From: Craspedostauros australis
Taxonomy: Eukaryota > Bacillariophyta > Bacillariophyceae > Mastogloiales > Achnanthaceae
NCBI GenBank assembly: GCA_026770025.1
Contig: JAMXDE010000066.1
Location: forward strand, 206,102-270,101
DNA length: 64,000 nucleotides
Reading direction: 5' to 3'
Each line of letters opens with the position of its first letter. Position 1 is the first letter of the stretch. Made by a program: the position numbers and the translations under genes. This document shows, piece by piece, positions 13,166 to 40,800 of this stretch. Under the pieces are notes generated by a model. That model was not told the origin of the DNA. It did no database searches and saw nothing but the letters and a program-made list of their open reading frames with translations.

Positions 13166-13196
13166 GGAACCGCGGTAAAGACCATATAATGGTCGG
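13166..13196 (+). repeat. Left terminal inverted repeat of Harbinger A
   Basis: It begins GGAACCGCGG, contains GACCATATAATGGTC, and pairs with 23261-23291 in inverted orientation with a single mismatch. CTTG precedes it. Confidence 0.7.
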
Positions 13197-13272
13197 ATTT
13201 TGCTTTGCTCACGCTTGAGGCGTGTTGTACGGTTTTGGGATCTGTCGAGTCAAGCACTAATGGGATTACTAG

Positions 13273-17908: not shown

Positions 17909-18918
17909 TTAGTGTGTCTGCTGTTCATCTGCTTGGGCGATGGCACGTTCGCGTGCTTCTTGCATCGCGACAACCACGTCAAACGAGGGGAAACCGTTGC
18001 TCAATTCAATTTGGGTGAGGATGGCAACCGCGTTGAATGCAAGGCGATGCTTGTCGACGTGGTGCCGCCACTTCAGGTGCATGCATTGCCAGTGCTTGAT
18101 TCGCCTGTTGACCGTTTCGTGGCGGCACCGCATGATGCCATCCGCGCGAAAAGTTGGGGGAAACACACAAGGGTCCCCACGGTATCCGGCATCTGCGACG
18201 ACGACTTCGTGTTGCACTAATTTCGGCTTCAGGCCCAGGCGGAAGATCGAAAGATCGTTCAACAGGCCACACGGGAAAGGCCCATTCGCCCAAACAATCT
18301 CGCCAGTAGAAATCGCAACAGCCAACTCGTAACGCAAACCGGCAGCGCGAAATTTGAACGAGTACCACTTCTTGTCAAACGGTTTCGGTTCGGTGATTCG
18401 CATGTCGGTCCCGTCAACAGTGACAAGAGCTTTTGCGTTGTGACTTGCGCCAACGAAACGACGGTTCCAGACGATCTGTCAATTGGAGCGGTACCAGGAA
18501 AAAGAACATGTGTGAGTGAATGGAGTGAAAATAATTTAGTGTCGTAGTTCGGGTGTGCGAATTTATTAGTACTTACAATGCGGTCCTTAACGGTTTCAAC
18601 GGCTGCCATCATCAGCCACATCCACTTGCGAAGTGTCTTCGCGGAACACTTGCACACTGCAGCGAGCGCAGTCTCAGACACGTACAGACGAAGAAACGCG
18701 CACGTCCAAAGGAGATGTTTGGGTTTGGCCCCGCGCGGGAGAGCTCGAGCGCCTACGAGCTCGTTCCACAAGATGTGCACGATGTCAGGATGCGTTCCGA
18801 ACACAGACGCGAACTGTCGCAACGATTCCACGGAAAGATCGTTCGCAAGCATGCCCCTTGGGCGAGACCCAATCAGTCCGAACCCCAAAACAGCGAAAGT
18901 TCCGCGTGGGAGTAACAT
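17909..18918 (-). CDS. Harbinger/IS5-like transposase A, two exons
   Basis: Exon 1 is 18918-18577 and exon 2 is 18475-17909. The intron 18476-18576 starts GTAAGT and ends CAG, and joining keeps the frame (KDRI to IVWNRRF). The 302-aa product has a helix-turn-helix-like N-terminal half (PKHLLWTCAFLRLY, LRKWMWLMMAAV). The DDE nuclease half has D135 (VTVDGTD), D209 (VVVADAGYRGD) and E234 (RHETVNRR), and the family block IVWANGPFPCGLLNDLSIFRLGL. The chosen start gives MLLPRGTF; an upstream ATG at 19065 would add 49 hydrophobic residues and looks less likely. It is transcribed away from the accessory gene at 21154-23092, inside the terminal repeats at 13166 and 23291. Intact, so potentially active. 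Confidence 0.9.
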
Positions 18919-19569
18919 GGTTTGTGTTCTTGCGAATTTGTGAGCTCTTTGTTCCTCTTCAAATATCAAAATGAGGCGAAAACCAACAATGTCAAAAAGT
19001 AGCCGTTGTAATAGTAGAAATAGCGCGCAAGCAAACTGCAACTTGGTAAGAGGAGGAAACAGCATTTCTCCGTGAACTCTGCGTGACTCCTGGTAGGCCA
19101 GTTGTTGTCTCCTTTTGCCGTTGGGGAGCTGCTCTCATGATGCGCTACCCAGGGCGCAAGACAGCAGAGAACGCAATAAACGCGTACTATTGTCCCACGA
19201 CGCCGCTGTCAAGGCGCTTCATCATGTCCAAGATGCCAGCAACGACAGAATTCAACGGACCAATACGTCAGATTCTATTCTTCGTCGCTGAATATTGTTA
19301 TGATCCCTGCGTCTTCATGACAGCGTGGGGGCTGTCATGGACGAACGAGTGCGCTGTGCCCTTTGTACGCGTTTGCAAGCAAGGCACGCTGCGGAGGGCG
19401 GAGAAACGATGTTTCGAGCAGGAGTCATCCTCTGTGAAGTCTCATCCTTGCCAACACAGTACTGCATTCTACTACTACTCCATTCCCGAGTGGACTTCCA
19501 CACAGTCAGAAGATAATTGATCACCAGTCATGATTACGCTAAACCGAACCTCGCAACGCATTTGAAATC

Positions 19570-19935
19570 CTGCCCGATGTCGGGACTAGGTCGTGTTCAC
19601 GTCGCACTCATGTCGCGTTTACGTTGCGTCCACATGCGTCCGTGTGGAGTTCGCGTCGTGCTCTCGTCGTGTTCATGTCGCGTTTACGTTGGGTGCATGT
19701 CGCGTGCAACTCACGTTGACGTTGCGTGCATGTTGCGTTGGCGATGCGCCCAGGTCGTGTTCACGTTGCGTCCATGTTGCGTCGACGATGCGTCCATGTC
19801 GCGTTCACGATGCGTGCATGTTGCGCTCACGTTGCTTTCGTGTTGCGCTCGCGCCGTGTTCACGCCGTGTTCGCGTCGCGTTCGCGTTGCGCTCGCGCCA
19901 TGTTCACGTCGCGCTCGTGTGACGTCGATCGCACG
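19570..19935. repeat. Degenerate CGTGTTCACGTTGCG tandem array
   Basis: The sequence is built of variants of CATGTTGCGTTC, ACGTCGCGCTCGTG and similar blocks with a step near 12 bp. Several frames stay open through it, giving Arg/Val/His/Cys-rich peptides that are best read as repeat artefacts. Confidence 0.7.
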
Positions 19936-20269
19936 TCGTTACCACTCCCTTTTGGTGTCCATCTCTGCAAGATCAACATGTCACATACGACACTATAACT
20001 TATAGGAATTTGTCGCAATGCACTACGTTCCTAGTATTCAAAACATGCAGAGTACAACTCTCATGCTAATTGTGATTGTAAATGCTGTAACCAATCAACA
20101 GCAACCAAATATTCTGAATGGTATCGACGGTATGCTGTTATCCATCGAAGCTTATTGTAGTTTATGCACTATTTCGCTGTTTACAACACAACTTGACTCG
20201 ATAACGTAGCATAGTACAGATTGAGTGCTTGTCACAGCGACAAATCTGCGGTAATTGGATGCTCATTTG

Positions 20270-20470
20270 GTGCTCATTTCGTGTCGATGTGTTCTCTGTG
20301 ACTGTCCTGTGCCGTGTCTCCGGACGTCCTGGCTCGTGTCTGGTGCGATTCTGTGCCGTGTCTGAGGACGTCCTGGCTCGTTTCTATCACGATTCTATGT
20401 TACGCCCACGAAGATCCTGGTTCGTATCTGCGGTTATTCCATGTCGTGTCGGTGTCTATTCCGATGCTTG
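20270..20470. repeat. About 55-bp degenerate direct repeats
   Basis: Blocks resembling GATTCTGTGCCGTGTC followed by GACGTCCTGGCTCG recur about three times at roughly 55-bp spacing, with increasing divergence to the right. Confidence 0.6.
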
Positions 20471-21153
20471 ACGTTTAGAGGCACATGGTGCAGCGCACGC
20501 GAGTCAAACATCGGTGCTCCAACGGCTCCCCAGATACCAGCTCCCCACGTCGTGCGCCATGAAGCACATGGTGAAAAGTCAACGAGGAAGACAAGTGGCC
20601 GGCGAATACGCCGGGCGAGTGTCGCACACGACAGAAGAACCATGTGCCTCCACAATCGTCGACTCACCGGAGCCATCCTTTTGCGTACGTTGAGCGTTGA
20701 GTCTAGACTAACGGTAGGTATACACTTATATGCCTAGGGATATAGTATAAGATGCTAATAGTAACATATATATATAGTAGATGCATACATTCATTCTAAG
20801 TACAGCTAGAGCAAGCCATACTGAACGTGGGATCGACCAGGCAAACAGCATGCGTTGAAAACTAAATGGGCAGAGTAGAGCTCTACACCACACGTGTTTT
20901 GTACAGTGTTTCTCCTGCCGATGTTTCGCGTTGACTGTTACCACGCTGCGACACGTTGATTGATGGCTCCCTCATCCTCTCAAGCACGGATGCTGCACAT
21001 CACAAGCCGCATGTTGATCACGCGCGGCAACCTCTACTCTGCGGAATGCAACGAAGTCAAGATGCAGTCTCATCTCATAATCGCCTTAGATTCAACATTG
21101 ACAGACGTGTACTTGTTGCTGATCCGCCATTCAACAGTAAGTGCCACTGCAAC

Positions 21154-23092
21154 ATGCCAAGAAAAGCTACTACGGAGAAACATGACAGTCCCGATGGGGT
21201 CGCATGGAACGAGTCGCTGTACCCGCAGATCCGCGCACTCAGGGCACAGCTCGAGAGCGGTGCCATCCCCATGGATAAGCCCGCAAGACTCGTTTGGAGC
21301 GAGAACGGCGACTTGGCGTTCTTGTCGAAGCGCAACTTTGCTCGCAACCTGCGCAATTTGCGCAAATCCGTGCAAAGAAGTCGCGCCAAGAAGCAAGCCA
21401 AAGCTGGTACGTCACTGCGTGTTTGTGAACCAGACACATCATTTCCGAATGAACAAATTTGCAACCGTTACTAACCCGTTATCCAGTGCGAATGGACACC
21501 AAAAAATCTCCGAACGTTTCTGATCTTGTCGCTAATGCTGCACAATACAAACAACAATTCGACAACACCATCGCAAAAGTATCAACCCAGAAACCCGAAG
21601 ACGCGAAGCAAACGATGGACACATTCTCTCGTTTGGCGTACGCCTCCCCACCAACCGGCGAAACCGAAGTTGGGACAACTGCCCGTCCGTCCGCCCCACC
21701 AATCCATGCGCACGTCGCGGCACCTGTCCCCACCCATCTGCCACCTGTCCCCACCAATCCGCCACCAACCCCCAGACCTGCATACGACGCGGCGAGCATG
21801 ATGACTGTTGCTCCTCCTGAGCCCTCGTCTGTTCCTGTGGCTTCTCCTGCTGCTGTTCGTCCTGCCTCTGCTACCAGCATGCTCGTGAACAATGCCGTAT
21901 CTGGGACACCCTTCCAAGAGGGTCTGAGTCGTGCGCAATCCATTTCTGATTGGATGAACAAGAACACCCTGGTCTTCTTACCTGCTGTGCGTCACGTGTA
22001 CTCTCCCCAAGGCCATGGCGAGGTGCTTGAAGTTACTTTCGAGTTGCCAGGTGGGACTTGCTATGGTGACGTCAAAGCGTCAATCAAGGAGCAAGGACGC
22101 GTTTTGGAGGTGGGGTTGAAGCAGAACCACGAACTCGGATCCACTGCAGCTACGGACAAGGAGCTGCTTGACTGCCTGAACGAGAAGCTGCCTACACACT
22201 TCAACATGCGCTCTTTTCAGGGACAACGCGAGCGGGGCGAGTCGTACGCGCTTGCTGTCCGCAGGATGTGTCGCGGACATCCCCAACCGTACCGCATTCA
22301 CAGGGAGATTCTCCCCATCCAAGTGAGTGATCGTTTTGAGATGACCACTGATCATGCAATGCACGGCGTCGACTTCCTCAATCCGGCCGTCAATCTCAAT
22401 GACCGTGACAGCGAGGTGGAGGCTGATGCGCCTCTCTTGATTGTTCGGTTGGTACCGGTGTACTCCGCGAATCCAGTGGTGCACAGCGCCACCAACTTGG
22501 CACGCTACGGGCGCAAGGCGGAGAATAGAACAACTAAGCATCCCGCGGGCATTACAATGGATGGGGATGATTACTCCTCGCTTGGGGAGGACGAAGTCAC
22601 ATTTGTTCCGTCCTCTGCTGCTCCTCCCCCGTTTCCACAAGGCCGCCGAGGAACCGGATCCGGAGAATGTTTCGAGGTAAGCCCCATCGATGCCACACTC
22701 GCCTCTTGCGCATGACATCAACTTGCACACTCACACCTGCTTTCTTTTTGTTTCCGATTGGCCAGTCTGCTCCTGCGCCATCTCGTGTGTCCGTGAACAG
22801 GATGACAGTCGCTCGTCGCGCGCGCCGTTCTGCTTCTCGCAAACGTGCTCCCCGTGCCATGGCATGCCGTTCCAGCCCAGCAGCTGTTCCTTCTGTCCCC
22901 GTCTCGGTCGTGATGCCGCCTCCTGTCCCCTCCTGCGCCCGCGCACCGCGCATCGCTAAAACGAAGCGTAGAAAGCGTGAGGCTGTGTTGATCGACCTCC
23001 ACATGGACAGCGATAGCGACAGCGATTTCGAAGTCACACCAGCACCTGCGAACTTGAAAAAAGGCGATGACAACAGCACAGAGACCGAGTGA
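21154..23092 (+). CDS. Harbinger A accessory protein, three exons, unknown family
   Basis: Exons are 21154-21406, 21487-22676 and 22766-23092. Introns 21407-21486 (phase 1) and 22677-22765 (phase 0) have GT-AG ends and the joined frame is open for 589 aa. Visible parts: a basic N-terminal segment with KRNFARNLRNLRK (residues 60-71); a Pro/Thr/Val-rich linker; a central domain starting DWMNKNTLVF with FELPGGTC (LPGGTC at 271-276) and ending APLLIVRLVP; and a basic stretch (RRARRSASRKR) before an acidic DSDSDSDFE end. The gene at 32496-34803 is homologous throughout and has the same two intron positions. The central VxFxLPGGT..DV pattern loosely recalls Hsp20/CS beta-sandwich domains (inference). 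A DNA-binding partner of the transposase, comparable to the Myb-like second protein of plant PIF/Harbinger, is the natural hypothesis. Confidence 0.85.
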
Positions 23093-23260
23093 GACTATCC
23101 CGACCACCCCTCAACACACGAACAAGAATAACACTATTAACGAATAACTCTAATCACCATGATCACACTAGGACGATTTGTTGTCTACGGTAGTACCTTC
23201 TAGATAGTCTAATTTGTTGCAACGGATTACTTGGACTACTATTGGAGTCCCATCGGCAAA

Positions 23261-23291
23261 CCGACCAATATATGGTCTTTACCGCGGTTCC
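23261..23291 (-). repeat. Right terminal inverted repeat of Harbinger A
   Basis: It is the inverted match of 13166-13196, ends GGTTCC, and is followed by CTTG. It lies about 170 bp past the stop codon of the accessory gene. Confidence 0.7.
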
Positions 23292-23405
23292 CTTGGTGTA
23301 GCGCGGCCATCCAAGCCCGCCTATTATCAGTGTCCAGCTGATGTGCAGTTTAGCGGAAGCCCCAGGACGGGTGTTGCTACGAGCTGCGCCAAACCGTAAA
23401 CTGTT
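23292..23405. other. Spacer with a CGGAAGCCCCAG motif
   Basis: The 12-mer CGGAAGCCCCAG at 23354-23365 is identical to the terminal sequence of the element at 25001-25655. It is preceded by GTTTAG, which matches the inverted CTAAAC at 25013-25018. It may be a stray end of another copy. The CCAAACCGTAAACTG next to the 23406 element also has an inverted match beyond its right end (about 24920-24942). Confidence 0.4.
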
Positions 23406-24917
23406 CACGATAACACTAGTTGTGGAGTTTTACTCGTGATGAGTCGTGATAAAGTAGACTAAAATAGAGCACATCCAACACCATCCAAATTACTGCTTAT
23501 GATGTTATATCTCGACACCATATAGGTTAAAATTAAAAATATACAGTGCATTCGGAAGCTTGGCTATCGTTTATTCTGAATATCGAAGTTGAATTTGTAT
23601 GAACTTTATTTTTAATGTCCTTTTGGCTTGCTGTCTGTCAGGTGGTGGATTCCAAAAATTCTCGATGGCACCATGGTGCCCTACCTTCATCACCCATGAT
23701 CATCATTATCATCCCTGACATTTTCACAATCTGCGCACCACACTGGCTCCGGATACCCCCCATCTATCCACTCCATGAAGGACAGAAAAATCTGGGCGCA
23801 TTGGATATCCCAAAGGCTCCCTGCACTGAAACGCAGAATTTTCGAACACCCGATTCCGACGCGGATGCCATTCGTATTTGGATCTGTATCTCGTCGATAC
23901 GATCCTTGCAGGTCCTCCACATGCCCCTCATGCGTTCCCACATTCTCTGGCGACACACTGATGTGTTCAGAATGGGTGGGGCGCTCATACCTCCAAAGGT
24001 ACACCTCCATGTGATGACGCCACCATGCTGTCTTTCCGACACCCCAAAAAAACCATTTCGTGTGCATCCCAGGCTGCAGCCTCTTCCAGACCTTTGATTT
24101 GTCCGGCGCTTCATGAACCGATCCCTGAGTTGATTCCGAACACATCTTGTATGGGTGGCTTGGCGATTTGGGTGACTTGTGAACGGCACCCATCACCAGC
24201 GAAGTCACGTGATGTGTCCGCCGCCACCCACCAAAAAACTCTTGCCCTCCACTTGTTTCTTGCGGAGGGCACCTTCCAGGCCACCCCCGACCCTCAAACT
24301 TCGTGTGCATCTTCATCGCATCCTCTTGGATGCGTCTTGTCCATCAATAGTTGTTGGAATGGCCTGTGCATTCCAGGCAGAGACCATATCCAACGAGCAG
24401 ATTTTGCTCGGAATCGTGTCGCTTGCGCGTGGGCCTGCCACGGCCCCAAATAAACCAGGATGGCATCCCCCTCTCGCTCATCCACCAAAATTTACATGGC
24501 GGTTCCGCCTATGCGCTCAGATCTTGCACTGAACCGCTGCTTGTCGCAGTGACGATGATGCCGTTCGACGGCGCTTGAGGAGTTTTGTTGTGTTTCTCCA
24601 TTGTCGTGTTGTTGTGTTGTGTTCGGTGTTCTCAAACAGTTTTTGCTGTTGAGGCCATGGAGAAAACCCACAATTCTACCGAATGTGCCCATCAATGAGA
24701 ACACTTTGCGAGTCCCGAATTTCGCCTCCACTCACACGATGTCTCTTCCTCTGTTGTGACTCGTTTCGCATGACGTGGAATCCTTCCCCTGTGACGTAGA
24801 AGACGGATCAGCGAGAGTAAACACGAAATAGCTCTAAATATGCAATCGCCGTTTCTCCCAAAAGCAAGCAAACCAGTGGCAACAAGGGGCCAAAACTCTA
24901 CAACTAGCGTTATCGTG
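23406..24917. mobile_element. 1.5-kb TIR element, copy 1 (probably non-autonomous)
   Basis: The left end CACGATAACACTAGTTGTGG pairs with the inverted right end CACGATAACGCTAGTTGTAG. The interior is homologous along its length to 49290-50794, including a block ending GATACCCCCCATCTATCC and the ATGATCATCATCATC-like block. The longest frame (23690-24316, minus, 208 aa) has a partly matching frame in the second copy (MEVY, then HSE.IS, HEGHVE). Both copies have stops and shifts, and no known transposase motif is visible. It is either a decayed autonomous element or a non-autonomous family. Confidence 0.75.
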
Positions 24918-25000
24918 ACCCAGTTTATGGTTTGGTGCAGGTCGTATTGTGGGAGTTGGAGATCATGGTGTTTGTGTGGTGTTCTGTGGGAAGTGCGTGA

Positions 25001-25655
25001 CTGGGGCTTCCGCTAAACTAACGGACATGGTGGCGCGGACGTGTTGTTAACGGACTGACGAACAATGATAGTCGTGAGTGCGATTGTATTAGTCTTGGTT
25101 GCCATGTCCTTCCGACATTGTCGTCGCCACTTGCGACTCGTATCTGTGCGATGTCAAAAAATGCCCTATTCAGGGCACCTATTCAAAACGTGCCTTAAAT
25201 AGGGCATCTTTTCTCCCTCATCCACACGTCGGTGTTCGCAGCCAATTGGACGACAGAAAGAGCAACAGCAAATCTAGTGCAACAACGTGACGACAGAGGA
25301 TTATCAAAGTCATGTCACGCCAAGATGACGATAAGTACTAATGTTCTGATTCGTCATTCAGAGACGTCCACATTGTTCCCCGTTGATGGTTTTGTGGAAT
25401 GTGCCCATCTTGGCTGGGCTATTGTGAAACAAAACGTGCCCTAAATAGGGCATCTTTTCAAAACGTGCCATAAATAGGGCATCTTTTTTTCGCTTTAGGC
25501 TAGAGACAGTTCAATCACGGATTGATAAAACCATAAAATCCAAGTACGACATTCAAAGCAGGACTAAGAATTTCGCATTCACGACTAACATTGTCCGTTA
25601 ACCAAATAGTGATGCTGTTCGTTAGTCCGATAGTCCGTTTCACCGGAAGCCCCAG
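25001..25655. mobile_element. Short TIR element (MITE-like), 655 bp
   Basis: It begins CTGGGGCTTCCG and ends CGGAAGCCCCAG. The inverted similarity reaches further in: AACGGAC, CTGACGAAC and TAGTCGTGAGTGCG on the left have inverted counterparts at 25580-25640. The interior repeats a block AAACGTGCC..AAATAGGGCATCTTTT at about 25186-25213, 25431-25456 and 25458-25486. There is no coding capacity. I could not identify a target duplication. Confidence 0.65.
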
Positions 25656-25941
25656 GCAGTTGGACGCACACCCAGCGATCCAACACAGTTTGGCACACGC
25701 ACGAACTATCGAATGACTCAATGGACTCAAGAACATCGAGTTCGATCGCACACGTATTCCTTCTTCGTGTTTCTTTCGTGTTGTTTGTGTGTGTGTGTTT
25801 TGTGGTGGATGTCGAGAAGGATCCGCACCAACCAGTTCTTCCACGACAAACCAGAGTGCGATCATGGAACAGAGAAACAGAACGTGCGAACAAGACAACA
25901 ACAACCTTGCTATTCCTTGCAGCAGCTTGGTCTCATACCAT
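25656..25941. other. Unique DNA left of the Harbinger B nest, possible host promoter
   Basis: Closing up the nest joins this sequence (ending CTCATACCAT-CAG) to TCAGCATCTTCATC at 51283, about 90 bp upstream of the ankyrin-BTB start codon. It may therefore be the original upstream region of that gene. It contains a short GT-rich tract (about 25786-25806). No gene is recognised. Confidence 0.4.
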
Positions 25942-26400
25942 CAGGGAGCAGGGAGCAGGGGAAATAGTCGTCGCTCAAAAAAAAAGGCTGTTTTTATGCA
26001 CTTGTTCACGAGCATTTCCCCGCATCAGACTGATACGACCAATGCTGTCTTCAAGTAGCCCCCGCTGGGGTAGTATCAATCGAGACACGGTGCTACACCC
26101 AACAACTCACTTCTGCGCGGCGCACAGGTGTCGTGTCGTTGTTTTTTGCCACCTTCGCGTGTCCGCGCTCTTCTGCTTTCCTTTCTTGCGTCTTTCCTCA
26201 TGTCGCGACAATGTTGTCCTTTTCGATTTCGTTCCTTGTTCCGTGCTGTGTGTTCCCACACATCCACCACAGAGAACATGGCACCGCACCACAGCACACA
26301 AAACAAATCGCAAAACAACTCGACGCAATCCAACACCACATCGCACAACATGACAGAGCATCCCACAGCATCGCACAGCATCCCACAATGCTGTGCCACA

Positions 26401-26600
26401 TCACACAACCTCACACAACCTCACACACCATCGCACACCATCGCACACCGTCGCACACCATCGCACACCATCCCACACCATCGCACACCGTCGCACACCA
26501 TCCCACACCGTCGCACACCGTCGCACACCATCGCACACCGTCGCACACCATCCCACACCGTCGCACACCATCGCACACCATCCCACACCGTCGCACACGA
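26401..26600. repeat. 10-bp tandem repeat TCGCACACC(A/G)
   Basis: About 20 units of a decamer alternate between TCGCACACCA, TCGCACACCG and TCCCACACCA. Because 10 is not a multiple of 3, all three plus-strand frames read a related Ser-His-Thr-Pro-type repeat and remain open. None is a credible gene. Confidence 0.92.
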
Positions 26601-27122
26601 GGCAACGCAACTGCACACACCATCACTCAGCATCACTCAGCATCACAGCATCACACAACACCGCGCGCTGTTACACGTCGACACAGCACGTTTGCACTGT
26701 CGACGTATTGTTCATGAACGGAGTTGGCACCTGCCCCCTCTGTTTTCTGACCGACCAACTTCGGCACATGTGTGTGCCTGCCTTGCCTTGCTTGCATGGT
26801 GTTGTTATCACATCGCTTGCTTGTCCATCCAATCTCCTTTAGATTGAACTCGTTTGGACCTGGGGTTGCATGGTGCCTGTGTGGTTGGCTCTCTCCTCTT
26901 GCCAGTCTGTATGTTGCCTTCGTTTTAGCTTCGATGTGGGTGTGGATCTCATGCGGTTTCGCGTTCCATTCCGGACATTGTTGATGCTGACAACAACTCC
27001 ACGTTCATGCACATGAACACAATGCACGACTGCACAGTCATGTTGACCGCATCGCAGAGCGATGTACTAGATCAGAGAGTAGTTCGGTGTGTTAGTCAGT
27101 GTTCTACATCAGTTATCGCTAG

Positions 27123-28228
27123 TTAGGTAGTCCTACTGTCGTTTGGGTCGGCCTCCATTACGCGATCCAGGTGCTCGCCGAGTGCCTCGCGCAATCTCAT
27201 CCGAGCCAGCTTTCGTTCCACCACCGGAAAGGGATCGAACAGTGGAGAACCACCCACAAGCTCAATTTGCGTAATGGTGGCAACCGCATTAAAGGCAAGA
27301 ATGTGTTTGTCGGTGTCATGTCGCCACGCATTTCTCATACATGCCCAGTGCTTCAGCCGTCGGTTAACAGTCTCATGTCTTGCACGCAGAATCTTGTCAG
27401 TGACGTACTTGGGAGGCAAAACGCGTTCATCCCCAATGTATCCTTTGTCGGCGACAACAACTTCGCCGTCCATCAGCTTGTTTTTTAAACCGAAACGGAA
27501 GATGCTGAGATCGTTCCACATGCCACAAGGAAAGGGTCCATTGGTCCAGACGATCTCTCCACCAACAATCGAGAGGGCGACCTCATACCGGACACCTGGA
27601 CCCTTGAACTTCTGTGAAAACCATCCCTCTGTGAACGGTTGCGGTTCTTCGATGCGAATGTCGACTCCGTCAACAGTGACAAGCGCTTTGTCGTCTTCGG
27701 ACACTCCACGAAAACGATTGGGCCAGTGAATCTGCAGTATTTATGCGTGACATGTTAGTGCTTTGTTGGAGAAGTGAATGGAACACGAAAGAACCAATGT
27801 TGATCAATTTGCGGACTTACCACGTCCTGCTTTACTCGGCTCACTAAGTCCAGCATGATCCAGACCCATTTGCGGAGTGTGGTGCGATTTGTGCCCAACC
27901 ACACAGACAGAATGGCCTCTGTGGAGTACTGCTTCAGAAACGCCGCTGTCCAAAGAATGTGCTTCGCCTGCATGTCATGCCGACATAGCCCAGCTTGTCC
28001 GATTTCATTCCACAACGTGTGTAGAACCGTTCCTGTTGTGCCAAAAAAGGAAAGAAAAATTCGTTGATTATCTGCTGTGTTACCGAGTCGCTTGATCTCT
28101 TCCATGCTGAGGGAAACGTCAATGATGGACCAACCCAGCCAGTCGAAGGTCCCGGGGGTGAGCGCGTACAGGGGTAATCCGTCCGACATGTTTCGGCAGG
28201 CGCTTTTTCGGTTTTGTGACAGTTGCAT
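27123..28228 (-). CDS. Harbinger/IS5-like transposase B, copy 1, two exons
   Basis: Exon 1 is 28228-27821 and exon 2 is 27731-27123. The intron 27732-27820 begins GTAAGT and ends CAG, and joins KQDV to IHWPNRFRG in frame. The 338-aa product carries KHILWTAAFLKQY and LRKWVWIMLDLV in its N-terminal half. The nuclease residues are D of VTVDGVD, D of VVVADKGYIGDE and E of RARHETVNRRLKHW, and the block IVWTNGPFPCGMWNDLSIFRFGLK is present. The intron sits exactly where transposase A has one. An internal Met (MSDGLPLY) is an alternative start. All catalytic residues are present and the ends of the element are intact, so this copy could be active. Confidence 0.92.
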
Positions 28229-30106
28229 AATCCCAACCCAACTCGAGCCTGGTTTGAGATGATTTACTTTTTATCTTGTGTCGGTGTCAGCGTCGACAAG
28301 CCACTGCGCGCTGTCGTGCTGACACCAATACCAGACAGCCGCCACCTCCGCGGTGGGTGCCGTTTGTTCCTACAAACGTGAATCATTTGCTGTTCTTCGT
28401 GTCAACACATGAAGCGTGTGCACCCGTCGCCATCTTGCGCTGCATGACGAACACAACGACCTCCACATCGCAATCAAACGTGAAACAATAATGAGAGGGA
28501 GCCATCATGTAGTGCCTATTCACACTATCATTTTATCATGAAGCCACAACATTGGACATGGTGGATGCTCCTTACACAGCTTCCTGTCTCTCGCAGGCGT
28601 ACAACATATTGGATTCAGAGCACATACATGTAGTAGTGCACTTGTGATTGTAATTTGCTGATAGAGCTAGTTGTTCCCGCAATGTGCCTTGTCTTTGCGG
28701 GATCGAAAGCAAAACTGCGTTGTTACGAACAGTGCCACAAATGCAAGACTCCATCGCTGCTTCACACTACCAATTGTCTTATCCTTTGGAATCCTCTGCT
28801 TTGACATGGCGAGCCAGGGAAACGTCATTCATGACGGAGACAGGCCAATTTGCTTTCGTCACCAGCATTTGTGGTGTGGCATGATGGCTCTCCGCGCGAC
28901 AGGGTTGATGTCACAAAACAGACCATCGGCAGCGGCACTTAATCACCATGTTTGTTCTGTACGACATGGATTGCCCAGCTCTGTGATGACACGTATACAC
29001 AACATGTCCCTCCTTGGCGACGAAAGATGTACAGTCTCGGTCGTTTCTCCCCAATCTCACTCGTGTTTCCCTGCCATGGCGTCACATTGCGTTCGCTCAT
29101 GCAACTACGATGCCAATGATGGCACTTGACACTGGACGCAGCTGTCATTCCGTGGTACTTCGTGTTGTTGTTCCTATCCAGCAAAGATATCACTTGAAGT
29201 TGCACGGCGGACAATATGCTGTTACTTTTGGGTGATACGCGGAAAAAGCTCTACCTTGTCGACGGAGTTCCCTGCATGGTGAGGGACTGCACCGATGTTG
29301 GTGTCATCGCAGCGAGGGGCGGGGAAACTCACGTCACGATTGACACCGACGCTCTCTGACATCTGCAATGTTCCATGATGTCAAACAACTACGTCCACGG
29401 GCGTGCCACTCCATCCTCACGGATCTCATTGACATGATCTGACGCGGGTCATGCGGTAGGGCACAGCACCTTGCGTAGCATTGCCAAATTTGTGATGACG
29501 CGTGCTGTATCCAAGCATTCCAAGATGGATTATTCGCGGGGAACAGAAAGGTGCAGTAGTACTGATGCATGCACATTAAACACCTGCTGTGGTCGTGTCT
29601 TGCATGCACCTGTACATCCCAACGACGACGCGTTATTGCATTCCATGCCATTGGCGGAACAAGGTCATTTCTCCTTCCAGTGCTATCGCAAACGCACCAA
29701 CCACCCCGCGATTCAGGATGACGATGCACAAAGTTCTCCATCGAGGGTGCTGTCTGTCTCTGGCTCACACTTGATGCCGGACGCGTGTTGGTGGGTGCGG
29801 GGGACACGCACTCTCGCCTTCCACGATTGCCTTCGCGACGCACCATTCTCCACGATGACGTCGTCTTGCATTATTCCACCTGCGCAGAGGCACGTCGTGC
29901 ACAACATCAAAAACGTCGAACGCATCCCCCCATGCGCAAATGCATGCGCGTGCGGATGCTTGCACTGCAGATGAACCATGCATGGGCTGCAAACGCACGA
30001 AGAGTGCACTGTATTCGCGTAGCAACATGTACTGTGAAACCATGTGCACTTTCCATACACTGTCCGTGTACACAGATCGACGTCGCATGCGCATGCACTG
30101 CACTTC

Positions 30107-30560
30107 ACGCACTTTTCGTGCACATGCACTGCACTGCACTGTACCGCACTTTTTGTGCACATGCACTGCACTGCACTGCACTGTGCTGCACATGCACTTC
30201 ACATGCACTGCACTGCACTGCACTGTACCGCACTTTTCGTGCACATGCACTGCACTGCACTGCACTGTGCTGCACATGCACTTCACATGCACTGCACTGT
30301 ACTGTACTGTACTGCACTGCACATGCACTTTCCGCGCACATGCACTTCACTTCACATGCACATGCACTTTCCGCGCACATGCACTTCACATGCAGATGCA
30401 CACGCACTTTTCATGCACACGCACTTTTCATGCACATGCACTTCCCTGCACATGCACTTCCCTGCACATGCACTTCCCTGCACATGCACTTCCCTGCACA
30501 TGCACTTCCCTGCGCATGCACTTCCCTGCGCATGCACTTCCCTGCGCATGCATTTTCCCT
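30107..30560. repeat. ATGCAC-rich tandem arrays
   Basis: Runs of CACTGCACTG (step 5) and ACATGCACTT alternate. They end with about eight units of a 16-mer ACATGCACTTCCCTGC (30435-30550). Several frames remain open on both strands because of the periodicity. Confidence 0.85.
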
Positions 30561-30895
30561 GCAGCTCATCAATACGTGGGATGCCAGATTAGCGTATGTC
30601 GTGAGCATGTCGCAGTCATGTCCAAGCGATATCGCAGACGACATTTAGCAAAAATAGCATTTCTCTGTTATACTTGGTTTGCACGGTTTACCACTGAGCA
30701 ATAGCAACAAATGGCAAAGCCTACAAGGCAGAAGAGGCGCACAACTGTGCGTGGAATCGGTGTGCCCATGCAGGCTCTACAGTCGCCATCGCTTCGTTGA
30801 CCAAGGTGCAAGTCAGCCACGGATGATTAGCGTTGCAATGGTGTGGAGAAATGTCACCGGGTTGTCGTAGCCATGTCCGTTGTATGTCTGGGGAA

Positions 30896-30985
30896 ATCAG
30901 CGGATGGGAAAATGCTGACATGCAAATCAGCGGATGGGAAAATACTGACATGCAAATCCGCGGATGGGAAATTGCCAACACGAAA
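30896..30985. repeat. 30-bp direct repeat, three units
   Basis: Three consecutive units start ATCAGCGGATGGGAAAAT; the third is diverged (ATCCGCGG). Confidence 0.85.
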
Positions 30986-31152
30986 ATGTGCAAATCTGTG
31001 GAGTTGCGAAACCTGGGAAGCGCATGCGTAAGAACGCTGATGTGCAGTCGCTGAAATGTGCATGTGCCGGTCCAGTTGATGAAGCCGACATGCGAAGCAA
31101 AGGTTGACATGCAACAGCTGACATGCGTATGTGCGCATTCTGAAGTGCAGAC

Positions 31153-31222
31153 GATGACACGCATACGATGACACGCATACGATGACACGCATACGATGAC
31201 ACGCATACGTTGACACGCATAC
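31153..31222. repeat. 14-bp tandem repeat, five units
   Basis: The unit is GATGACACGCATAC; the fifth copy has GTTG in place of GATG. Confidence 0.9.
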
Positions 31223-32495
31223 GATGCTGTGTCGGTGCGCAAATGCAGTTGTCGTAATGCTGACACGCATCCTCCAACATGCAGGGTAGCGACATGATGA
31301 CGCTCATGTGTACATGTTGACATGCATATCCTGGTGTGCCGCAAGGGCAACTCCGAACATGAACAAAAACACCTCACGAACGAGGACAACGCGCCAACAC
31401 AAACGACAGGCGACGCGGATGATGCATCCAACCGTGTGCAAACCACAAATTGTGCGCGTCTTGTAATTTCGTGGTCGCAGCACTGACAACACAAAGAAAA
31501 AATGGCGTGCGTTGTTCAGTGGCGGAAAGTGCCATCACAGAAAGTGTCCATTACGACTCGCACACCAACGTCACAATTTACCACCAGTCGTGCAAACAGG
31601 AATGTCTTTGCGCGACCACGCCAGTTGGCATCCCTCCATCAGTGAACAAACACAACCGCATGGTCGTGGTCGCACTGATGTCTTCGTCCTGCAATGATAC
31701 TGGTTGTGTGCAAAAGCGAAAAAATGGAGTTGGATCCGACTGTCGGAACCGCGTGGAGCATGTGCGGGTGCCGCGGCTCCAAGTGCGTGTCAACCTTGCG
31801 TTCCCCGTGTGGTGCACACGTCATGTGATCAAACGTTTCTTGCGCACGAAGAAGGGATAGCGTGGTGTCTGTCGACCTGTTGACATGACATGGATGACGT
31901 GCGTATGGTTCAACTACAACTGACGTGGAATGCTGTATATCACATCCTACATGTCACGTGGCGGAAACCAACCAATGATGTAACACTATGGGACGTCAAC
32001 ACACGTCGTGCGAGAGCGAGGATCTAAACTGCTAGGCTGCTGCAAAAGATGCGATGAATCTATTCATATCGTAGGCCCCACGATGACATCACTTGTGGCA
32101 GTGACACCGATTGTTCTATAGAATAGGTGTTGTCAACATTCACTACGGAGTTGAAGCCGCCTGCATGCGACGATCTTTGCACAGTGACATGGCCATCCAC
32201 TGATCTGTACACCACCGAAGAGTCAGGTGCCAGCAGCCATGGAGTCAACAAACGAGTACTAACACACACTGACATGTGATGTGTCACACTGTACTGTGGG
32301 TGTAGAATCCTACTGCTACATGAATTCGTTCACCCTGTGCGATGCTGTAACTCAATCTGTCCCATGTACATCAACGTAGTAATCTAGCAGGCCGACGAGC
32401 TGTTGTGTTGCATGAGTGGATGCATGGATGCTGACGGTGGAATGTACTCACAAAATAGCAAGGCCTCCCTCAACTACATTCATCAAACTGCTAGC

Positions 32496-34803
32496 ATGGC
32501 TAAATCCTGGAAGCGCACCGCACCCGAGGTAGTGGAGCTGAAACGAAAGATAGAGTGTGGTGAAATCCTACAATCCTACTCTGCGAACTTCGTCTACGAC
32601 AAGTACCCTGAACTGCACGTGTTCAGCCGCGCAAACTTCGCTCGCAACTACAGGAACTTGTGGATTACGCACATGGAGGAGGTCGCGTTGGCAGGTACGT
32701 AGTGGTGAGTAAATTGATTGGTTGTGCACGTATGATGTGCGCACAATGGACATTTCTCACTCACACGTCTGCACAGAAGCCACAAAGCCGAAGAACACAC
32801 CGGATGTAAAACAGTACATCAAAAACAAAGAGTACCTTCAATCCGAAGTCGGTTGGGCCGTCTCCCTTCCTCCCTCTCACTTTCTCAAAACCGCATCCCA
32901 AAACAACGTCACCTCTCCCTCCACCCAATCAACGGCATCAACTGGGCCAACCGAACACCCCACCACTCCAACACGAATGAAAAAAGCAAACAAAAAGACA
33001 GCCAAGAGTGAACAGGTAAGTACACTGGTGAACAGAGAGAGTGAAGAATCCTGTACGGAAGAAATGTCTGAACCCGGAGAACCTGTTCCGGTCACTCCTG
33101 CGCGAATCAAGGAGAGGAAAGTTTTGACAACCGCGTCCTGGCTTGAGCGCAACAAAACTGTGGGACTGATTGGTCATCGTCATGAGTACTTGCACGAGAA
33201 CCATCGTGTCCTGGGTATTGATTTCGTTCTCCCTGGTGGCACATGTGCGGATGATGTTGAATGCATCATTGTCAACGGCACTCAACTCCACATCAAGGTG
33301 GAGGCCAATGCAGCACTCACCAATACAACATTGCACCAAGACCGTGAACTGCTTTCCTTGTTCAACCACGACCCAAAAAACAAAAAAGCCCCCGATGCCA
33401 CCGGATTCTACCTTCAACAGGAACGCAAACTCGCCTACAAGCGCGCGACAAAGTGTGTCTGGAATTCGGATGAGCCCCAAACTCGTGTGCACCGTGAAGA
33501 CTTGCCATGTGTTGTCGCGGGGATGCTTGACAACAACCCCACCGGCGTTTTTCTCCACATCAACTTCATCGAACCTCTTGTCCCTCTTAACTCATCCACG
33601 ATCAAAAAACAAGAAAGCGCGCGCGTGCCCATGCTACTTGTCCGTATGGTGGAGGCGCTCCCAGACAGAACACTTCCCCTCAAACCGACCAACAGAGCCT
33701 CGCGCACTAATCCCACCACGAAGGCGCTTCGCACCTCCCCACCCAAACAACACGACAAACCCAAGCTTGAAAAATTGTGCGCGCTTCTTGACTCCGGCAG
33801 CTTGTCTGAAGATGACTGCAAGTATGACTTTGTGCCAGCACCAGTCCGCAGCAGAAGCGAGGTAAGTGCTGCGCCCTTGGAACAAACACGAACTGCAATT
33901 GATTAATTAACACTTACTCACACCTCTCTTTTTCCGTTTTGACCGTTGTCCACACATGCGCCTTGTTGCCTTCTGTGCGCACAGCCAGAGATTATCTATC
34001 TGTTGAGCAGCGACAGCGACACTGACCCGATCGTTGCTGACAAGAACGAAGCGAAAGCCAAGCGTCCTGATTGCGTCCTGTCGTACGCACGGAGCAAAGT
34101 GAAGGTGGAACGGGTTGCCAGACCAGAGATCGTCCGCAGCCACCACAATGACCCGCACCAACACGCTGCAAGCATGCGCAGTGTGTTCACCACTCGCTCC
34201 TACAGCGAGGATGCAGCCACCACCAAACACAAAAACACTCACAAAAACAAAGCACACCGCAAAACAACAACACCAACCAACACCAGCAACCACCACATTG
34301 GGACCGCCTCTCACCATGGCAGTCCCGGCCTAAGGAGCAACACACCCAAATGGCACTATGGGTGTGTGGCTCCCACGAAAAAGCGCAAGGACCCTCCCTC
34401 CGAGGCGTCGCCATCCTCCATGGCAGCTTCCATCACAGCATGCGCCAGCAACCAATCCAGCCCGAAGAAACAATTCGACAGTGGGGTCAACATGCCCACA
34501 CTGACAGATACTGCGGGCAAGGCAGGAGAAGCTGCCTTGGCAAGAGCAGTGGCAGCCAGCAACAGCACAGCATTCGGTGGTGGGGCCAACACACCCCCAC
34601 CACCAGATGCATGCAGCACTGCACCACCGAGCACAACATTCGAGGTCCCAGATGTGCTGCCACTGCCAGAAGCAACAGCCTTGGCAACCTTGGCAGCAGC
34701 AGCAGGCAACACACCACACAGCACCAGCACAGGAATCAAGGGCGGGGCCGATGCGCCCCCACTGCCAGGTGCAACAGAACCAAACACCGGCGACGACTAC
34801 TAG
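32496..34803 (+). CDS. Harbinger B accessory protein, copy 1, three exons
   Basis: Exons are 32496-32694, 32777-33861 and 33985-34803. Introns 32695-32776 (phase 1) and 33862-33984 (phase 0) have GT-AG ends, and the joined frame codes for 700 aa. It aligns with the protein at 21154-23092. Shared parts are RANFARNYRNLW (residues 45-56), a low-complexity Thr/Ser/Pro linker, SWLERNKTVGLIG leading to FVLPGGTC (LPGGTC at 218-223), PMLLVRMVE, LSEDDCKYDFVPAP, and the post-intron LLSSDSDTD. Its C-terminal 200 residues are a low-complexity Ala/Thr/Pro/Asn tail absent from A. The ATG giving MAKSWKRT is preferred because it matches A's start region; an upstream in-frame ATG exists at 32403. It is encoded divergently from the transposase in the same element. 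Function unknown; a transposition partner is inferred. Confidence 0.86.
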
Positions 34804-34810
34804 AGGAACA

Positions 34811-35152
34811 GAGCCAGCAAACAGCAACATCGGACAGCACCAATTATGAAATGAGTGAGCAGCAACAGAGCCAGCAAACAGCAACATCGGACAGCACCAA
34901 TCATGAAATGAGTGAGCAGCAACACAGCCAGCAAACAGCAACATCGGACAGCACCAAATATGAAATGAGTGAGCAGCAACAGAGCCAGAAAACAGCAACA
35001 TCGGACAGCACCAATCATGAAATGAGTGAGCAGCAACAGAGCCAGCAAACAGCAACATCGGACAGTACCAAATATGAAATGAGTGAGCAGCAACAGAGCC
35101 AGCAAACAGCAACATCGGACAGCACCAATCATGAAAAGAAAGCGGAATCGCC
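34811..35152 (+). repeat. 57-bp (19-codon) tandem repeat, six units
   Basis: Six units with a step of 57 bp begin GAGCCAGCAAACAGCAACAT. They start right after the accessory-gene stop. In another frame (open from 34350 to 35264) they encode six copies of a 19-residue Ser/Gln/Thr-rich repeat followed by a basic tail. The repeat length is a multiple of three and substitutions fall as H/Y, N/K and Q/H changes without stops. The frame may therefore be used through alternative splicing or a shift from the accessory gene. Confidence 0.85.
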
Positions 35153-36069
35153 ACAAACAGTCCAACCCACAAGCCAACAGAAACAAATACGAGACAACCC
35201 CCACAAAGACAGAAACAAAAAAGCGGAAGAGATGAAACCAACGTCGCAAGACATAATGAAATAACCAACCACCCCATGCAACACAACATCGCAACTGTGC
35301 TGCGCTGAAATCAATAGTAACATGTTCGTCGTCGGGAGTACAAGCCCATCAAACTGAACTAGTGAAAGTGCGGTCAAAATCATGACCCCAGCATCGGCTG
35401 GGGAAAGTCCAATGACGTGTGTTGGTGCAGATGGCAACCAATAGTATGGTATCCCATGTCGTTGCTAATCAAAACTCAGTACATGGTGCCAGTTGTCGCA
35501 GCAACTAATCCGTGACAAGCGCAATGGGATTCGTTTGTAGTCCTGGGAAATTTAGGAAAACAATAACAGGAAATGCTGACATTTTCCCTACATCCGGGAA
35601 AATGTCGTCTATTTCCCCTGCTCCCAGGGGAAATAGTCGTCGCTCAAAAAAAAAGGCTGTTTTTATGCACTTGTTCACGAGCATTTCCCCGCATCAGACT
35701 GATACGACCAATGCTGTCTTCAAGTAGCCCCCGCTGGGGTAGTATCAATCGAGACACGGTGCTACACCCAACAACTCACTTCTGCGCGGCGCACAGGTGT
35801 CGTGTCGTTGTTTTTTGCCACCTTCGCGTGTCCGCGCTCTTCTGCTTTCCTTTCTTGCGTCTTTCCTCATGTCGCGACAATGTTGTCCTTTTCGATTTCG
35901 TTCCTTGTTCCGTGCTGTGTGTTCCCACACATCCACCACAGAGAACATGGCACCGCACCACAGCACACAAAACAAATCGCAAAACAACTCGACGCAATCC
36001 AACACCACATCGCACAACATGACAGAGCATCCCACAGCATCGCACAGCATCCCACAATGCTGTGCCACA

Positions 36070-36269
36070 TCACACAACCTCACACAACCTCACACACCAT
36101 CGCACACCATCGCACACCGTCGCACACCATCGCACACCATCCCACACCATCGCACACCGTCGCACACCATCCCACACCGTCGCACACCGTCGCACACCAT
36201 CGCACACCGTCGCACACCATCCCACACCGTCGCACACCATCGCACACCATCCCACACCGTCGCACACGA
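36070..36269. repeat. 10-bp tandem repeat TCGCACACC(A/G), copy 2
   Basis: It is the counterpart of 26401-26600 in the second Harbinger B copy, with no length change. Confidence 0.92.
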
Positions 36270-36791
36270 GGCAACGCAACTGCACACACCATCACTCAGC
36301 ATCACTCAGCATCACAGCATCACACAACACCGCGCGCTGTTACACGTCGACACAGCACGTTTGCACTGTCGACGTATTGTTCATGAACGGAGTTGGCACC
36401 TGCCCCCTCTGTTTTCTGACCGACCAACTTCGGCACATGTGTGTGCCTGCCTTGCCTTGCTTGCATGGTGTTGTTATCACATCGCTTGCTTGTCCATCCA
36501 ATCTCCTTTAGATTGAACTCGTTTGGACCTGGGGTTGCATGGTGCCTGTGTGGTTGGCTCTCTCCTCTTGCCAGTCTGTATGTTGCCTTCGTTTTAGCTT
36601 CGATGTGGGTGTGGATCTCATGCGGTTTCGCGTTCCATTCCGGACATTGTTGATGCTGACAACAACTCCACGTTCATGCACATGAACACAATGCACGACT
36701 GCACAGTCATGTTGACCGCATCGCAGAGCGATGTACTAGATCAGAGAGTAGTTCGGTGTGTTAGTCAGTGTTCTACATCAGTTATCGCTAG

Positions 36792-37897
36792 TTAGGTAGT
36801 CCTACTGTCGTTTGGGTCGGCCTCCATTACGCGATCCAGGTGCTCGCCGAGTGCCTCGCGCAATCTCATCCGAGCCAGCTTTCGTTCCACCACCGGAAAG
36901 GGATCGAACAGTGGAGAACCACCCACAAGCTCAATTTGCGTAATGGTGGCAACCGCATTAAAGGCAAGAATGTGTTTGTCGGTGTCATGTCGCCACGCAT
37001 TTCTCATACATGCCCAGTGCTTCAGCCGTCGGTTAACAGTCTCATGTCTTGCACGCAGAATCTTGTCAGTGACGTACTTGGGAGGCAAAACGCGTTCATC
37101 CCCAATGTATCCTTTGTCGGCGACAACAACTTCGCCGTCCATCAGCTTGTTTTTTAAACCGAAACGGAAGATGCTGAGATCGTTCCACATGCCACAAGGA
37201 AAGGGTCCATTGGTCCAGACGATCTCTCCACCAACAATCGAGAGGGCGACCTCATACCGGACACCTGGACCCTTGAACTTCTGTGAAAACCATCCCTCTG
37301 TGAACGGTTGCGGTTCTTCGATGCGAATGTCGACTCCGTCAACAGTGACAAGCGCTTTGTCGTCTTCGGACACTCCACGAAAACGATTGGGCCAGTGAAT
37401 CTGCAGTATTTATGCGTGACATGTTAGTGCTTTGTTGGAGAAGTGAATGGAACACGAAAGAACCAATGTTGATCAATTTGCGGACTTACCACGTCCTGCT
37501 TTACTCGGCTCACTAAGTCCAGCATGATCCAGACCCATTTGCGGAGTGTGGTGCGATTTGTGCCCAACCACACAGACAGAATGGCCTCTGTGGAGTACTG
37601 CTTCAGAAACGCCGCTGTCCAAAGAATGTGCTTCGCCTGCATGTCATGCCGACATAGCCCAGCTTGTCCGATTTCATTCCACAACGTGTGTAGAACCGTT
37701 CCTGTTGTGCCAAAAAAGGAAAGAAAAATTCGTTGATTATCTGCTGTGTTACCGAGTCGCTTGATCTCTTCCATGCTGAGGGAAACGTCAATGATGGACC
37801 AACCCAGCCAGTCGAAGGTCCCGGGGGTGAGCGCGTACAGGGGTAATCCGTCCGACATGTTTCGGCAGGCGCTTTTTCGGTTTTGTGACAGTTGCAT
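36792..37897 (-). CDS. Harbinger/IS5-like transposase B, copy 2, two exons
   Basis: Exon 1 is 37897-37490 and exon 2 is 37400-36792; the intron is 37401-37489. The predicted 338-aa protein is identical to that of 27123-28228 as far as I can compare. The three acidic catalytic residues (VTVDGVD, VVVADKGY, RHETVNRR) are kept. The gene is intact even though the right part of this element copy is interrupted by another transposon. Confidence 0.92.
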
Positions 37898-40800
37898 AAT
37901 CCCAACCCAACTCGAGCCTGGTTTGAGATGATTTACTTTTTATCTTGTGTCGGTGTCAGCGTCGACAAGCCACTGCGCGCTGTCGTGCTGACACCAATAC
38001 CAGACAGCCGCCACCTCCGCGGTGGGTGCCGTTTGTTCCTACAAACGTGAATCATTTGCTGTTCTTCGTGTCAACACATGAAGCGTGTGCACCCGTCGCC
38101 ATCTTGCGCTGCATGACGAACACAACGACCTCCACATCGCAATCAAACGTGAAACAATAATGAGAGGGAGCCATCATGTAGTGCCTATTCACACTATCAT
38201 TTTATCATGAAGCCACAACATTGGACATGGTGGATGCTCCTTACACAGCTTCCTGTCTCTCGCAGGCGTACAACATATTGGATTCAGAGCACATACATGT
38301 AGTAGTGCACTTGTGATTGTAATTTGCTGATAGAGCTAGTTGTTCCCGCAATGTGCCTTGTCTTTGCGGGATCGAAAGCAAAACTGCGTTGTTACGAACA
38401 GTGCCACAAATGCAAGACTCCATCGCTGCTTCACACTACCAATTGTCTTATCCTTTGGAATCCTCTGCTTTGACATGGCGAGCCAGGGAAACGTCATTCA
38501 TGACGGAGACAGGCCAATTTGCTTTCGTCACCAGCATTTGTGGTGTGGCATGATGGCTCTCCGCGCGACAGGGTTGATGTCACAAAACAGACCATCGGCA
38601 GCGGCACTTAATCACCATGTTTGTTCTGTACGACATGGATTGCCCAGCTCTGTGATGACACGTATACACAACATGTCCCTCCTTGGCGACGAAAGATGTA
38701 CAGTCTCGGTCGTTTCTCCCCAATCTCACTCGTGTTTCCCTGCCATGGCGTCACATTGCGTTCGCTCATGCAACTACGATGCCAATGATGGCACTTGACA
38801 CTGGACGCAGCTGTCATTCCGTGGTACTTCGTGTTGTTGTTCCTATCCAGCAAAGATATCACTTGAAGTTGCACGGCGGACAATATGCTGTTACTTTTGG
38901 GTGATACGCGGAAAAAGCTCTACCTTGTCGACGGAGTTCCCTGCATGGTGAGGGACTGCACCGATGTTGGTGTCATCGCAGCGAGGGGCGGGGAAACTCA
39001 CGTCACGATTGACACCGACGCTCTCTGACATCTGCAATGTTCCATGATGTCAAACAACTACGTCCACGGGCGTGCCACTCCATCCTCACGGATCTCATTG
39101 ACATGATCTGACGCGGGTCATGCGGTAGGGCACAGCACCTTGCGTAGCATTGCCAAATTTGTGATGACGCGTGCTGTATCCAAGCATTCCAAGATGGATT
39201 ATTCGCGGGGAACAGAAAGGTGCAGTAGTACTGATGCATGCACATTAAACACCTGCTGTGGTCGTGTCTTGCATGCACCTGTACATCCCAACGACGACGC
39301 GTTATTGCATTCCATGCCATTGGCGGAACAAGGTCATTTCTCCTTCCAGTGCTATCGCAAACGCACCAACCACCCCGCGATTCAGGATGACGATGCACAA
39401 AGTTCTCCATCGAGGGTGCTGTCTGTCTCTGGCTCACACTTGATGCCGGACGCGTGTTGGTGGGTGCGGGGGACACGCACTCTCGCCTTCCACGATTGCC
39501 TTCGCGACGCACCATTCTCCACGATGACGTCGTCTTGCATTATTCCACCTGCGCAGAGGCACGTCGTGCACAACATCAAAAACGTCGAACGCATCCCCCC
39601 ATGCGCAAATGCATGCGCGTGCGGATGCTTGCACTGCAGATGAACCATGCATGGGCTGCAAACGCACGAAGAGTGCACTGTATTCGCGTAGCAACATGTA
39701 CTGTGAAACCATGTGCACTTTCCATACACTGTCCGTGTACACAGATCGACGTCGCATGCGCATGCACTGCACTTCACGCACTTTTCGTGCACATGCACTG
39801 CACTGCACTGTACCGCACTTTTTGTGCACATGCACTGCACTGCACTGCACTGTGCTGCACATGCACTTCACATGCACTGCACTGCACTGCACTGTACCGC
39901 ACTTTTCGTGCACATGCACTGCACTGCACTGCACTGTGCTGCACATGCACTTCACATGCACTGCACTGTACTGTACTGTACTGCACTGCACATGCACTTT
40001 CCGCGCACATGCACTTCACTTCACATGCACATGCACTTTCCGCGCACATGCACTTCACATGCAGATGCACACGCACTTTTCATGCACACGCACTTTTCAT
40101 GCACATGCACTTCCCTGCACATGCACTTCCCTGCACATGCACTTCCCTGCACATGCACTTCCCTGCACATGCACTTCCCTGCGCATGCACTTCCCTGCGC
40201 ATGCACTTCCCTGCGCATGCATTTTCCCTGCAGCTCATCAATACGTGGGATGCCAGATTAGCGTATGTCGTGAGCATGTCGCAGTCATGTCCAAGCGATA
40301 TCGCAGACGACATTTAGCAAAAATAGCATTTCTCTGTTATACTTGGTTTGCACGGTTTACCACTGAGCAATAGCAACAAATGGCAAAGCCTACAAGGCAG
40401 AAGAGGCGCACAACTGTGCGTGGAATCGGTGTGCCCATGCAGGCTCTACAGTCGCCATCGCTTCGTTGACCAAGGTGCAAGTCAGCCACGGATGATTAGC
40501 GTTGCAATGGTGTGGAGAAATGTCACCGGGTTGTCGTAGCCATGTCCGTTGTATGTCTGGGGAAATCAGCGGATGGGAAAATGCTGACATGCAAATCAGC
40601 GGATGGGAAAATACTGACATGCAAATCCGCGGATGGGAAATTGCCAACACGAAAATGTGCAAATCTGTGGAGTTGCGAAACCTGGGAAGCGCATGCGTAA
40701 GAACGCTGATGTGCAGTCGCTGAAATGTGCATGTGCCGGTCCAGTTGATGAAGCCGACATGCGAAGCAAAGGTTGACATGCAACAGCTGACATGCGTATG

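Follow-up and report, generated by a model that had tools for sequence, protein, structure and literature searches.

Diatom transposons of the IS5/Harbinger type pair their transposase with a divergent second gene predicted to encode a helix-turn-helix and an alpha-crystallin-like domain

PIF/Harbinger transposons encode two proteins, a transposase and the product of a second open reading frame (ORF1), and why they need both is an old question. According to the available sections of one study, both are needed for transposition; ORF1 binds the terminal inverted repeats (TIRs) and the transposase and brings the latter into the nucleus, and a mutation in its Myb-like fold stops excision (PMC2836001). 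In the accessible part of their paper, Han et al. (2015) sort PHIS elements by target, with TWA for PIF/Harbinger, AT for ISL2EU, ANT for Pangu, CWG for NuwaI, and C|TNA|G for NuwaII; NuwaI, with TIRs that start with GGG and a second ORF of the Myb/SANT type, is reported there from animals only, and the second ORF of Pangu contains no known motif (PMC4482050). Algal papers mention Harbinger elements, with no second protein in the sections examined (PMC5963040, PMC2806351). Here, we describe two related transposons, A and B, the latter present in two copies (B1 and B2), in a stretch of 64,000 nucleotides from the diatom Craspedostauros australis (assembly GCA_026770025.1, contig JAMXDE010000066.1, positions 206,102 to 270,101; this whole stretch is the window herein, and coordinates refer to it). 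Each carries a transposase gene and, divergent from it, a second gene that we term the partner gene. We consider it probable that these are two-gene PHIS-type (IS5/Harbinger-related) transposons in which the partner is an ORF1-type helper needed together with the transposase. In the searched literature, with Repbase and most subscription papers outside its range, a Harbinger element with an Hsp20-like or alpha-crystallin second protein is undescribed, and a record may exist elsewhere; the sole match for Harbinger together with Hsp20-like was a paper on the Arabidopsis MBD7 complex.

Element A extends from 13164 to 23298, as read by aligning it to L034, a copy with 99.6% identity, and has the TIR GGGAACCGCGGTAAAGACCATATA and a 2-bp target site duplication, TT, in the target C|NN|G. 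Element B1 (TIR GGGAGCAGGGGAAATAGWCGWC; 25951 to 35625) has the target C|W|G, and its copy B2 (∼35625 to 51280) comes directly after it in the same orientation, with 2 differences in 9,510 positions compared. The terminal repeats of A (GGGAACCGCGGTAAAGACC...) and B (GGGAGCAGGGGAAATAG...) are unlike, as an initial annotation of this DNA had proposed; its placement of the partner genes inside separate elements also stands, and only the extents need revision, since the whole elements exceed the coordinates given there. The transposase of A consists of two overlapping open frames on the minus strand (17909 to 19134) and that of B1 of two frames on the same strand (27123 to 27740 and 27755 to 28270, together 27123 to 28270). 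Both score above the cut-off for PF13359 (DDE_Tnp_4; E value of 1.9e-7 for 17909 to 18478 and 9.1e-7 for 27123 to 27740), and the partner genes, on the plus strand, are thus each divergent from a transposase of the IS5/Harbinger type, as annotated initially.

Searches of the genome with at most 2 mismatches gave 29 sites for the A TIR and 37 for the B TIR, and the backwards patterns gave none. In all 11 A insertions with both ends read (among them L034 and the copy in the window), a direct duplication of 2 bp is flanked by C and G, i.e., the target C|NN|G, and all 10 insertions with B ends (L035, the B1-B2 composite, and 8 others without a partner or transposase among the matches listed) have the target C|W|G. 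The duplication could be read as 2 bp or 4 bp in A and is readable as 1 bp or as the 3-bp CWG in B. The 3-bp TWA duplication is found in none of these 21 insertions (A has NN, and B has W or CWG), and neither element should be classed as PIF/Harbinger in the narrow sense. The termini of element B, from a non-animal host, are NuwaI-like, and the target of A lies outside the PHIS types listed in the accessible part of PMC4482050. Pairs of B TIRs 4.4 to 4.6 kb apart, with no gene matches between them, look like non-autonomous copies. Four of six further elements (L071, L072, L074, and L077) yielded a TIR pair: L077 has the TIR GGGAAG and a 2-bp AT duplication, and L072 and L074 have GGGAGG and a CTG duplication. 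The duplication at L071 has mismatching ends (CTG versus CAG), and for L075 and L076, no TIR pair was found within the stretches read.

Both window elements carry insertions of their own. The left arm of A contains a piggyBac-like element (DDE_Tnp_1_7; 13273 to 17043, ORF at 13871 to 16540) with perfect ends (TGCCTCAAAGAGCCGG) and a CTAG duplication, as seen by comparing the sequences on either side of it with the unoccupied site in L034; the usual target site of piggyBac is TTAA, unlike the CTAG observed here. B2 is interrupted by a 6-kb element (45138 to 51120) with 167-bp inverted repeats (82%), a TAA duplication, and an ORF of 1,205 amino acids (45658 to 49275) without a Pfam match. B1 and B2 adjoin in the same orientation (35600 to 35640), with the outermost TIR bases of B2 merged with the right end of B1; we read this junction as the product of a recent insertion into the terminus of B1 or of tandem duplication there. 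At its right end, B2 is overlapped by a single open frame (51167 to 52732) encoding ankyrin repeats and BTB/BACK domains.

Partner gene A (21154 to 23092, 589 amino acids) has three exons (21154 to 21406, 21487 to 22676, and 22766 to 23092) and is homologous to partner gene B (32496 to 34803, 700 amino acids; exons 32496 to 32694, 32777 to 33861, and 33985 to 34803); the gene in B2 (42165 to 44472, plus strand) encodes a protein that differs from B in one residue. All introns are GT-AG introns, phase 1 followed by phase 0, at equivalent places in A and B, and the two proteins align over 423 columns with 25% identity (E value of 2e-24). In A, the shared motifs are NFARN (residues 61 to 65), LPGGTC (271 to 276), PLLIVR (400 to 405), and an acidic S/D run (555 to 566), and their counterparts in B are NFARN (47 to 51), LPGGTC (218 to 223), PMLLVR (351 to 356), and an S/D run (431 to 440). 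Exons, splice sites, motifs, and homology were all rechecked directly and agree with the two homologous genes with matching intron positions and phases that were first annotated. The acidic S/D-rich end given for both proteins is correct for A, where the run lies near the end, and incorrect for B, where it is not terminal.

To count such pairs across the genome, partner loci were sought with four queries (the partners of B, A, L029, and L030) and transposases with two; overlapping or duplicate matches were merged before counting, and the numbers of loci among the matches listed, to which all counts in this paragraph refer, are lower bounds. A divergent transposase was found ≤15 kb from 150 of the at least 182 partner loci (59 of 70 of the A/B type, 58 of 68 of the L029 type, and 33 of 44 of the L030 type), and a divergent partner lies beside 151 of at least 167 transposases; with 1,000 random placements, 4.2 pairs were obtained on average and 11 at most. 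A further 72 PF13359 loci, hand-picked from 150 matches as those not already among the transposase-query matches, included 6 that are ≤15 kb from an L029- or L030-type partner. The pairing is thus a property of a set of related transposases and reaches far beyond the two elements. One alternative is that the partner belongs to a host gene family that was captured by transposons or is clustered near them. The 32 of 182 partner loci without a transposase nearby, some of which have open frames of 458 to 919 amino acids, fit this explanation; nevertheless, partner genes are not mostly found away from transposases, 150 are paired in one orientation against the 4.2 expected at random, and the pair lies inside TIRs wherever the ends were read, which makes this alternative extremely improbable and close to refuted. 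Long partner-like open frames with no transposase found ≤15 kb away (C58:350186-351133, C20:1147883-1148875, and C40:117342-118439) are possibly decayed elements, genes whose transposases are outside the matches listed, or domesticated copies. The same genome contains a separate Harbinger-like group (L001 to L008), with transposases of 433 to 444 amino acids in a single frame in the four loci examined and a different divergent second ORF, seen incompletely, with no Pfam match above the cut-off.

The two genes have also diverged together. For 13 elements, partner and transposase distances are correlated (Mantel r = 0.937, P = 1e-4), and the well-supported clades of the partner and transposase trees are concordant. 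The partner genes are under purifying selection, with ratios of nonsynonymous to synonymous substitution rates (dN/dS) of 0.10 to 0.23 in all 9 pairs, and so is the central domain described below; together with the genome-wide pairing, this supports the original proposal that the partner is the second protein of IS5/Harbinger-type transposons. In two comparisons, the synonymous divergence (dS) of the transposases is far below that of the partners (0.16 versus 1.65, the latter near saturation, for A and L076, and 0.12 versus 0.85 for L074 and L075; the transposase comparisons are 17909 to 19134 with L088 and L086 with L087), suggesting that element lineages have exchanged parts of their transposase genes.

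The N-terminal domain of B is encoded by exon 1 (32496 to 32694, plus strand) and is predicted by AlphaFold to be a helix-turn-helix (pLDDT of 92.6, pTM of 0.75; helices at residues 10 to 20, 30 to 36, 38 to 42, and 45 to 65), with NFARN (47 to 51) within the last predicted helix. From the family alignment and the model of its B homologue, exon 1 of A (21154 to 21406, plus strand) is likewise predicted to encode a helix-turn-helix with NFARN. The NFARN segment had been proposed to be the DNA-binding part of the protein, and its predicted position is in keeping with such a role. The best structural matches of this domain, all weak, are helix-turn-helix DNA-binding domains, with the ARR1 GARP domain, which is presumably Myb-like, ranking first in a VIA structural list of 9 chains in all; that Myb/SANT/MADF entries are missing from so short a list carries no weight. 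The partner, first annotated as having a fold unrelated to Myb/SANT, might instead be a very diverged Myb/SANT ORF1, as in NuwaI and PIF/Harbinger, with a central domain that is lineage specific and functionally minor. However, no Pfam Myb/SANT model matched A, B, or any N-terminal domain in a scan of 13, and purifying selection on the central domain, which can also be recognized in a more diverged subfamily, shows that it is more than a minor extension, so that we regard this explanation as rather unlikely. A search of the genome with Myb_DNA-bind_4 gave no match, and the controls likewise gave none, so that this negative carries no information.

The central domain of B (residues 184 to 371, 33127 to 33690, plus strand) is predicted to be Hsp20/CS-like with a two-helix insert of about 50 residues. 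Its AlphaFold model (pLDDT of 61, pTM of 0.54) has Foldseek and VIA matches to alpha-crystallin domain (ACD)/CS structures, and we are moderately sure that it is an ACD/CS beta-sandwich, as first suggested for this segment; the central domain of A (21939 to 22496, plus strand) was located by alignment, and its predicted fold is based on homology to B. Pfam and PDB profile searches with the central domain returned no HSP20/CS sequence profile, and PDB and Pfam sequence searches with B and both domain alignments gave nothing usable. With hhalign, the central domain aligned only partially to a host Hsp20 profile (5 of 6 loci examined, one near-duplicate having been dropped, from 10 PF00011 matches), and the global alignment was no better than with shuffles. 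Of five elements with low-identity transposases (L029 to L033), four have large divergent ORFs; in the remaining one, the examined stretch ends shortly before the partner. By profile comparison with hhalign, the partner of L029 aligns to the A/B central domain over 134 columns (E value of 9.2e-5, probability of 59), and the partners of L030 to L032 gave no significant match to the A/B alignment (E value of 0.084), their gene order, layout, and length suggesting kinship with A and B. The family is thus not confined to two elements or to the NFARN and LPGGTC motifs, as had been assumed. In viral contigs, 66 pattern matches were obtained, none of which was confirmed as a relative.

The acidic run of B follows hydrophobic residues (IIYLLSSDSD, 33991 to 34020, plus strand, found with a pattern test), and similar stretches are present in A (VLIDLHMDSDSD, 22985 to 23020) and L012 (VIDLLSDDS). 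This combination of hydrophobic and S/D residues resembles SUMO-interacting motifs. A pattern fixed after inspection of an initial set of tails (A, B, L012, L023, and L076) occurs in 13 of the 14 A/B-subclade tails tested, several of which are near copies, L027 being without it, and in 0 of 4 tails of the L071 to L075 group and 0 of 4 distant partners; L011 and L035, which are one copy, are outside the tail count since no V-R block was located in them. Such a motif could also belong to an anti-silencing or regulatory passenger outside the transpososome, i.e., an ACD protein that draws in host chromatin factors and keeps the element expressed. There is a precedent in Arabidopsis, where, according to the available sections of two reports, the ACD proteins IDM2/ROS5 and IDM3/LIL are in one complex with the Harbinger-derived proteins HDP1 and HDP2 and counter silencing (PMC5462541, PMC5758694). 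This complex is a parallel, not evidence of kinship, and the predicted helix-turn-helix, the divergent pairing of 151 of 167 transposases among the matches listed, and the correlated divergence fit a core role at least as well; a mere passenger appears distinctly unlikely to us.

For an ORF1-type helper, which we prefer, the following mechanism can be proposed. The N-terminal helix-turn-helix, with NFARN in its last helix, would read the terminal or subterminal repeats, and the central ACD/CS-like domain with its two-helix insert would dimerize or oligomerize and hold the transposase, thereby delivering it to the element ends and holding these together. Host factors in the nucleus may be contacted by the acidic tail, which is SUMO-interacting-like in the A/B subclade. 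We infer DNA binding, transposase binding, oligomerization, and a need for the partner in transposition, and an element with such a helper would be a new form of two-protein transposon. It is possible, although we offer this only tentatively, that the whole transposon clade recruited a small-heat-shock-type oligomerization domain, fused to a helix-turn-helix, as an end-binding scaffold, with an alpha-crystallin cage that joins both ends and regulates the dose of transposase; in that case, the affinity between alpha-crystallin and Harbinger proteins would have been exploited twice, independently so in the plant IDM complex.

Elsewhere in the window are a Copia-type retroelement polyprotein of 1,980 amino acids in a single frame (2476 to 8418) and a long, GTT-rich microsatellite (11136 to 12300). 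The genome gave 61 matches to PF00504, and the light-harvesting protein at L080 is in keeping with a diatom.

In comparison with known systems, A and B resemble PIF/Harbinger elements (Ping/Pong, Harbinger3_DR) in having an IS5-like DDE transposase, a second protein that is encoded separately and predicted to contain a DNA-binding domain, short TIRs, and copies that have TIRs without gene matches; they differ in their target site duplication, which is not TWA, and in an ORF1 with a predicted Hsp20/CS-like center and no Myb/SANT signature detectable by sequence. Like NuwaI, B has the target C|W|G (10 of 10 insertions), a TIR beginning with GGGAGCA, and two ORFs, a likeness of termini and ORF number; the TIR of A (GGGAACC) also starts with GGG, whereas its target is C|NN|G (11 of 11), and NuwaI is described, in the accessible text, with a Myb/SANT second ORF and from animals only (PMC4482050). 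NuwaII shares the outer C and G of its target with A and B and differs in the core, TNA, and Pangu is similar in having a second ORF without a known motif and different in its target core, ANT. That related elements use the similar targets C|W|G and C|NN|G is relevant to the evolution of target site length. The partner shares a predicted beta-sandwich with Hsp16.5, Hsp20.1, p23, and Sgt1, its LPGG segment aligning with the PG turn of Hsp20, and is distinguished from them by the two-helix insert, the fusion to a helix-turn-helix, its encoding by a transposon, and the lack of a Pfam HSP20 signature. A natural comparison is offered by a lineage whose second protein was apparently rebuilt on a chaperone-type beta-sandwich and is paired with its transposase at about 150 loci of a single genome among the matches listed, and the duties of any ORF1 can be predicted from it: to bind the ends, to bind the transposase, and to multimerize. 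In the Arabidopsis IDM/MBD7 complex (IDM2, IDM3, HDP1, and HDP2), alpha-crystallin proteins also work with Harbinger-derived proteins, there as separate host proteins with an anti-silencing role, and the partner family would provide an element-encoded counterpart to these proteins, whose presence in that complex is puzzling.
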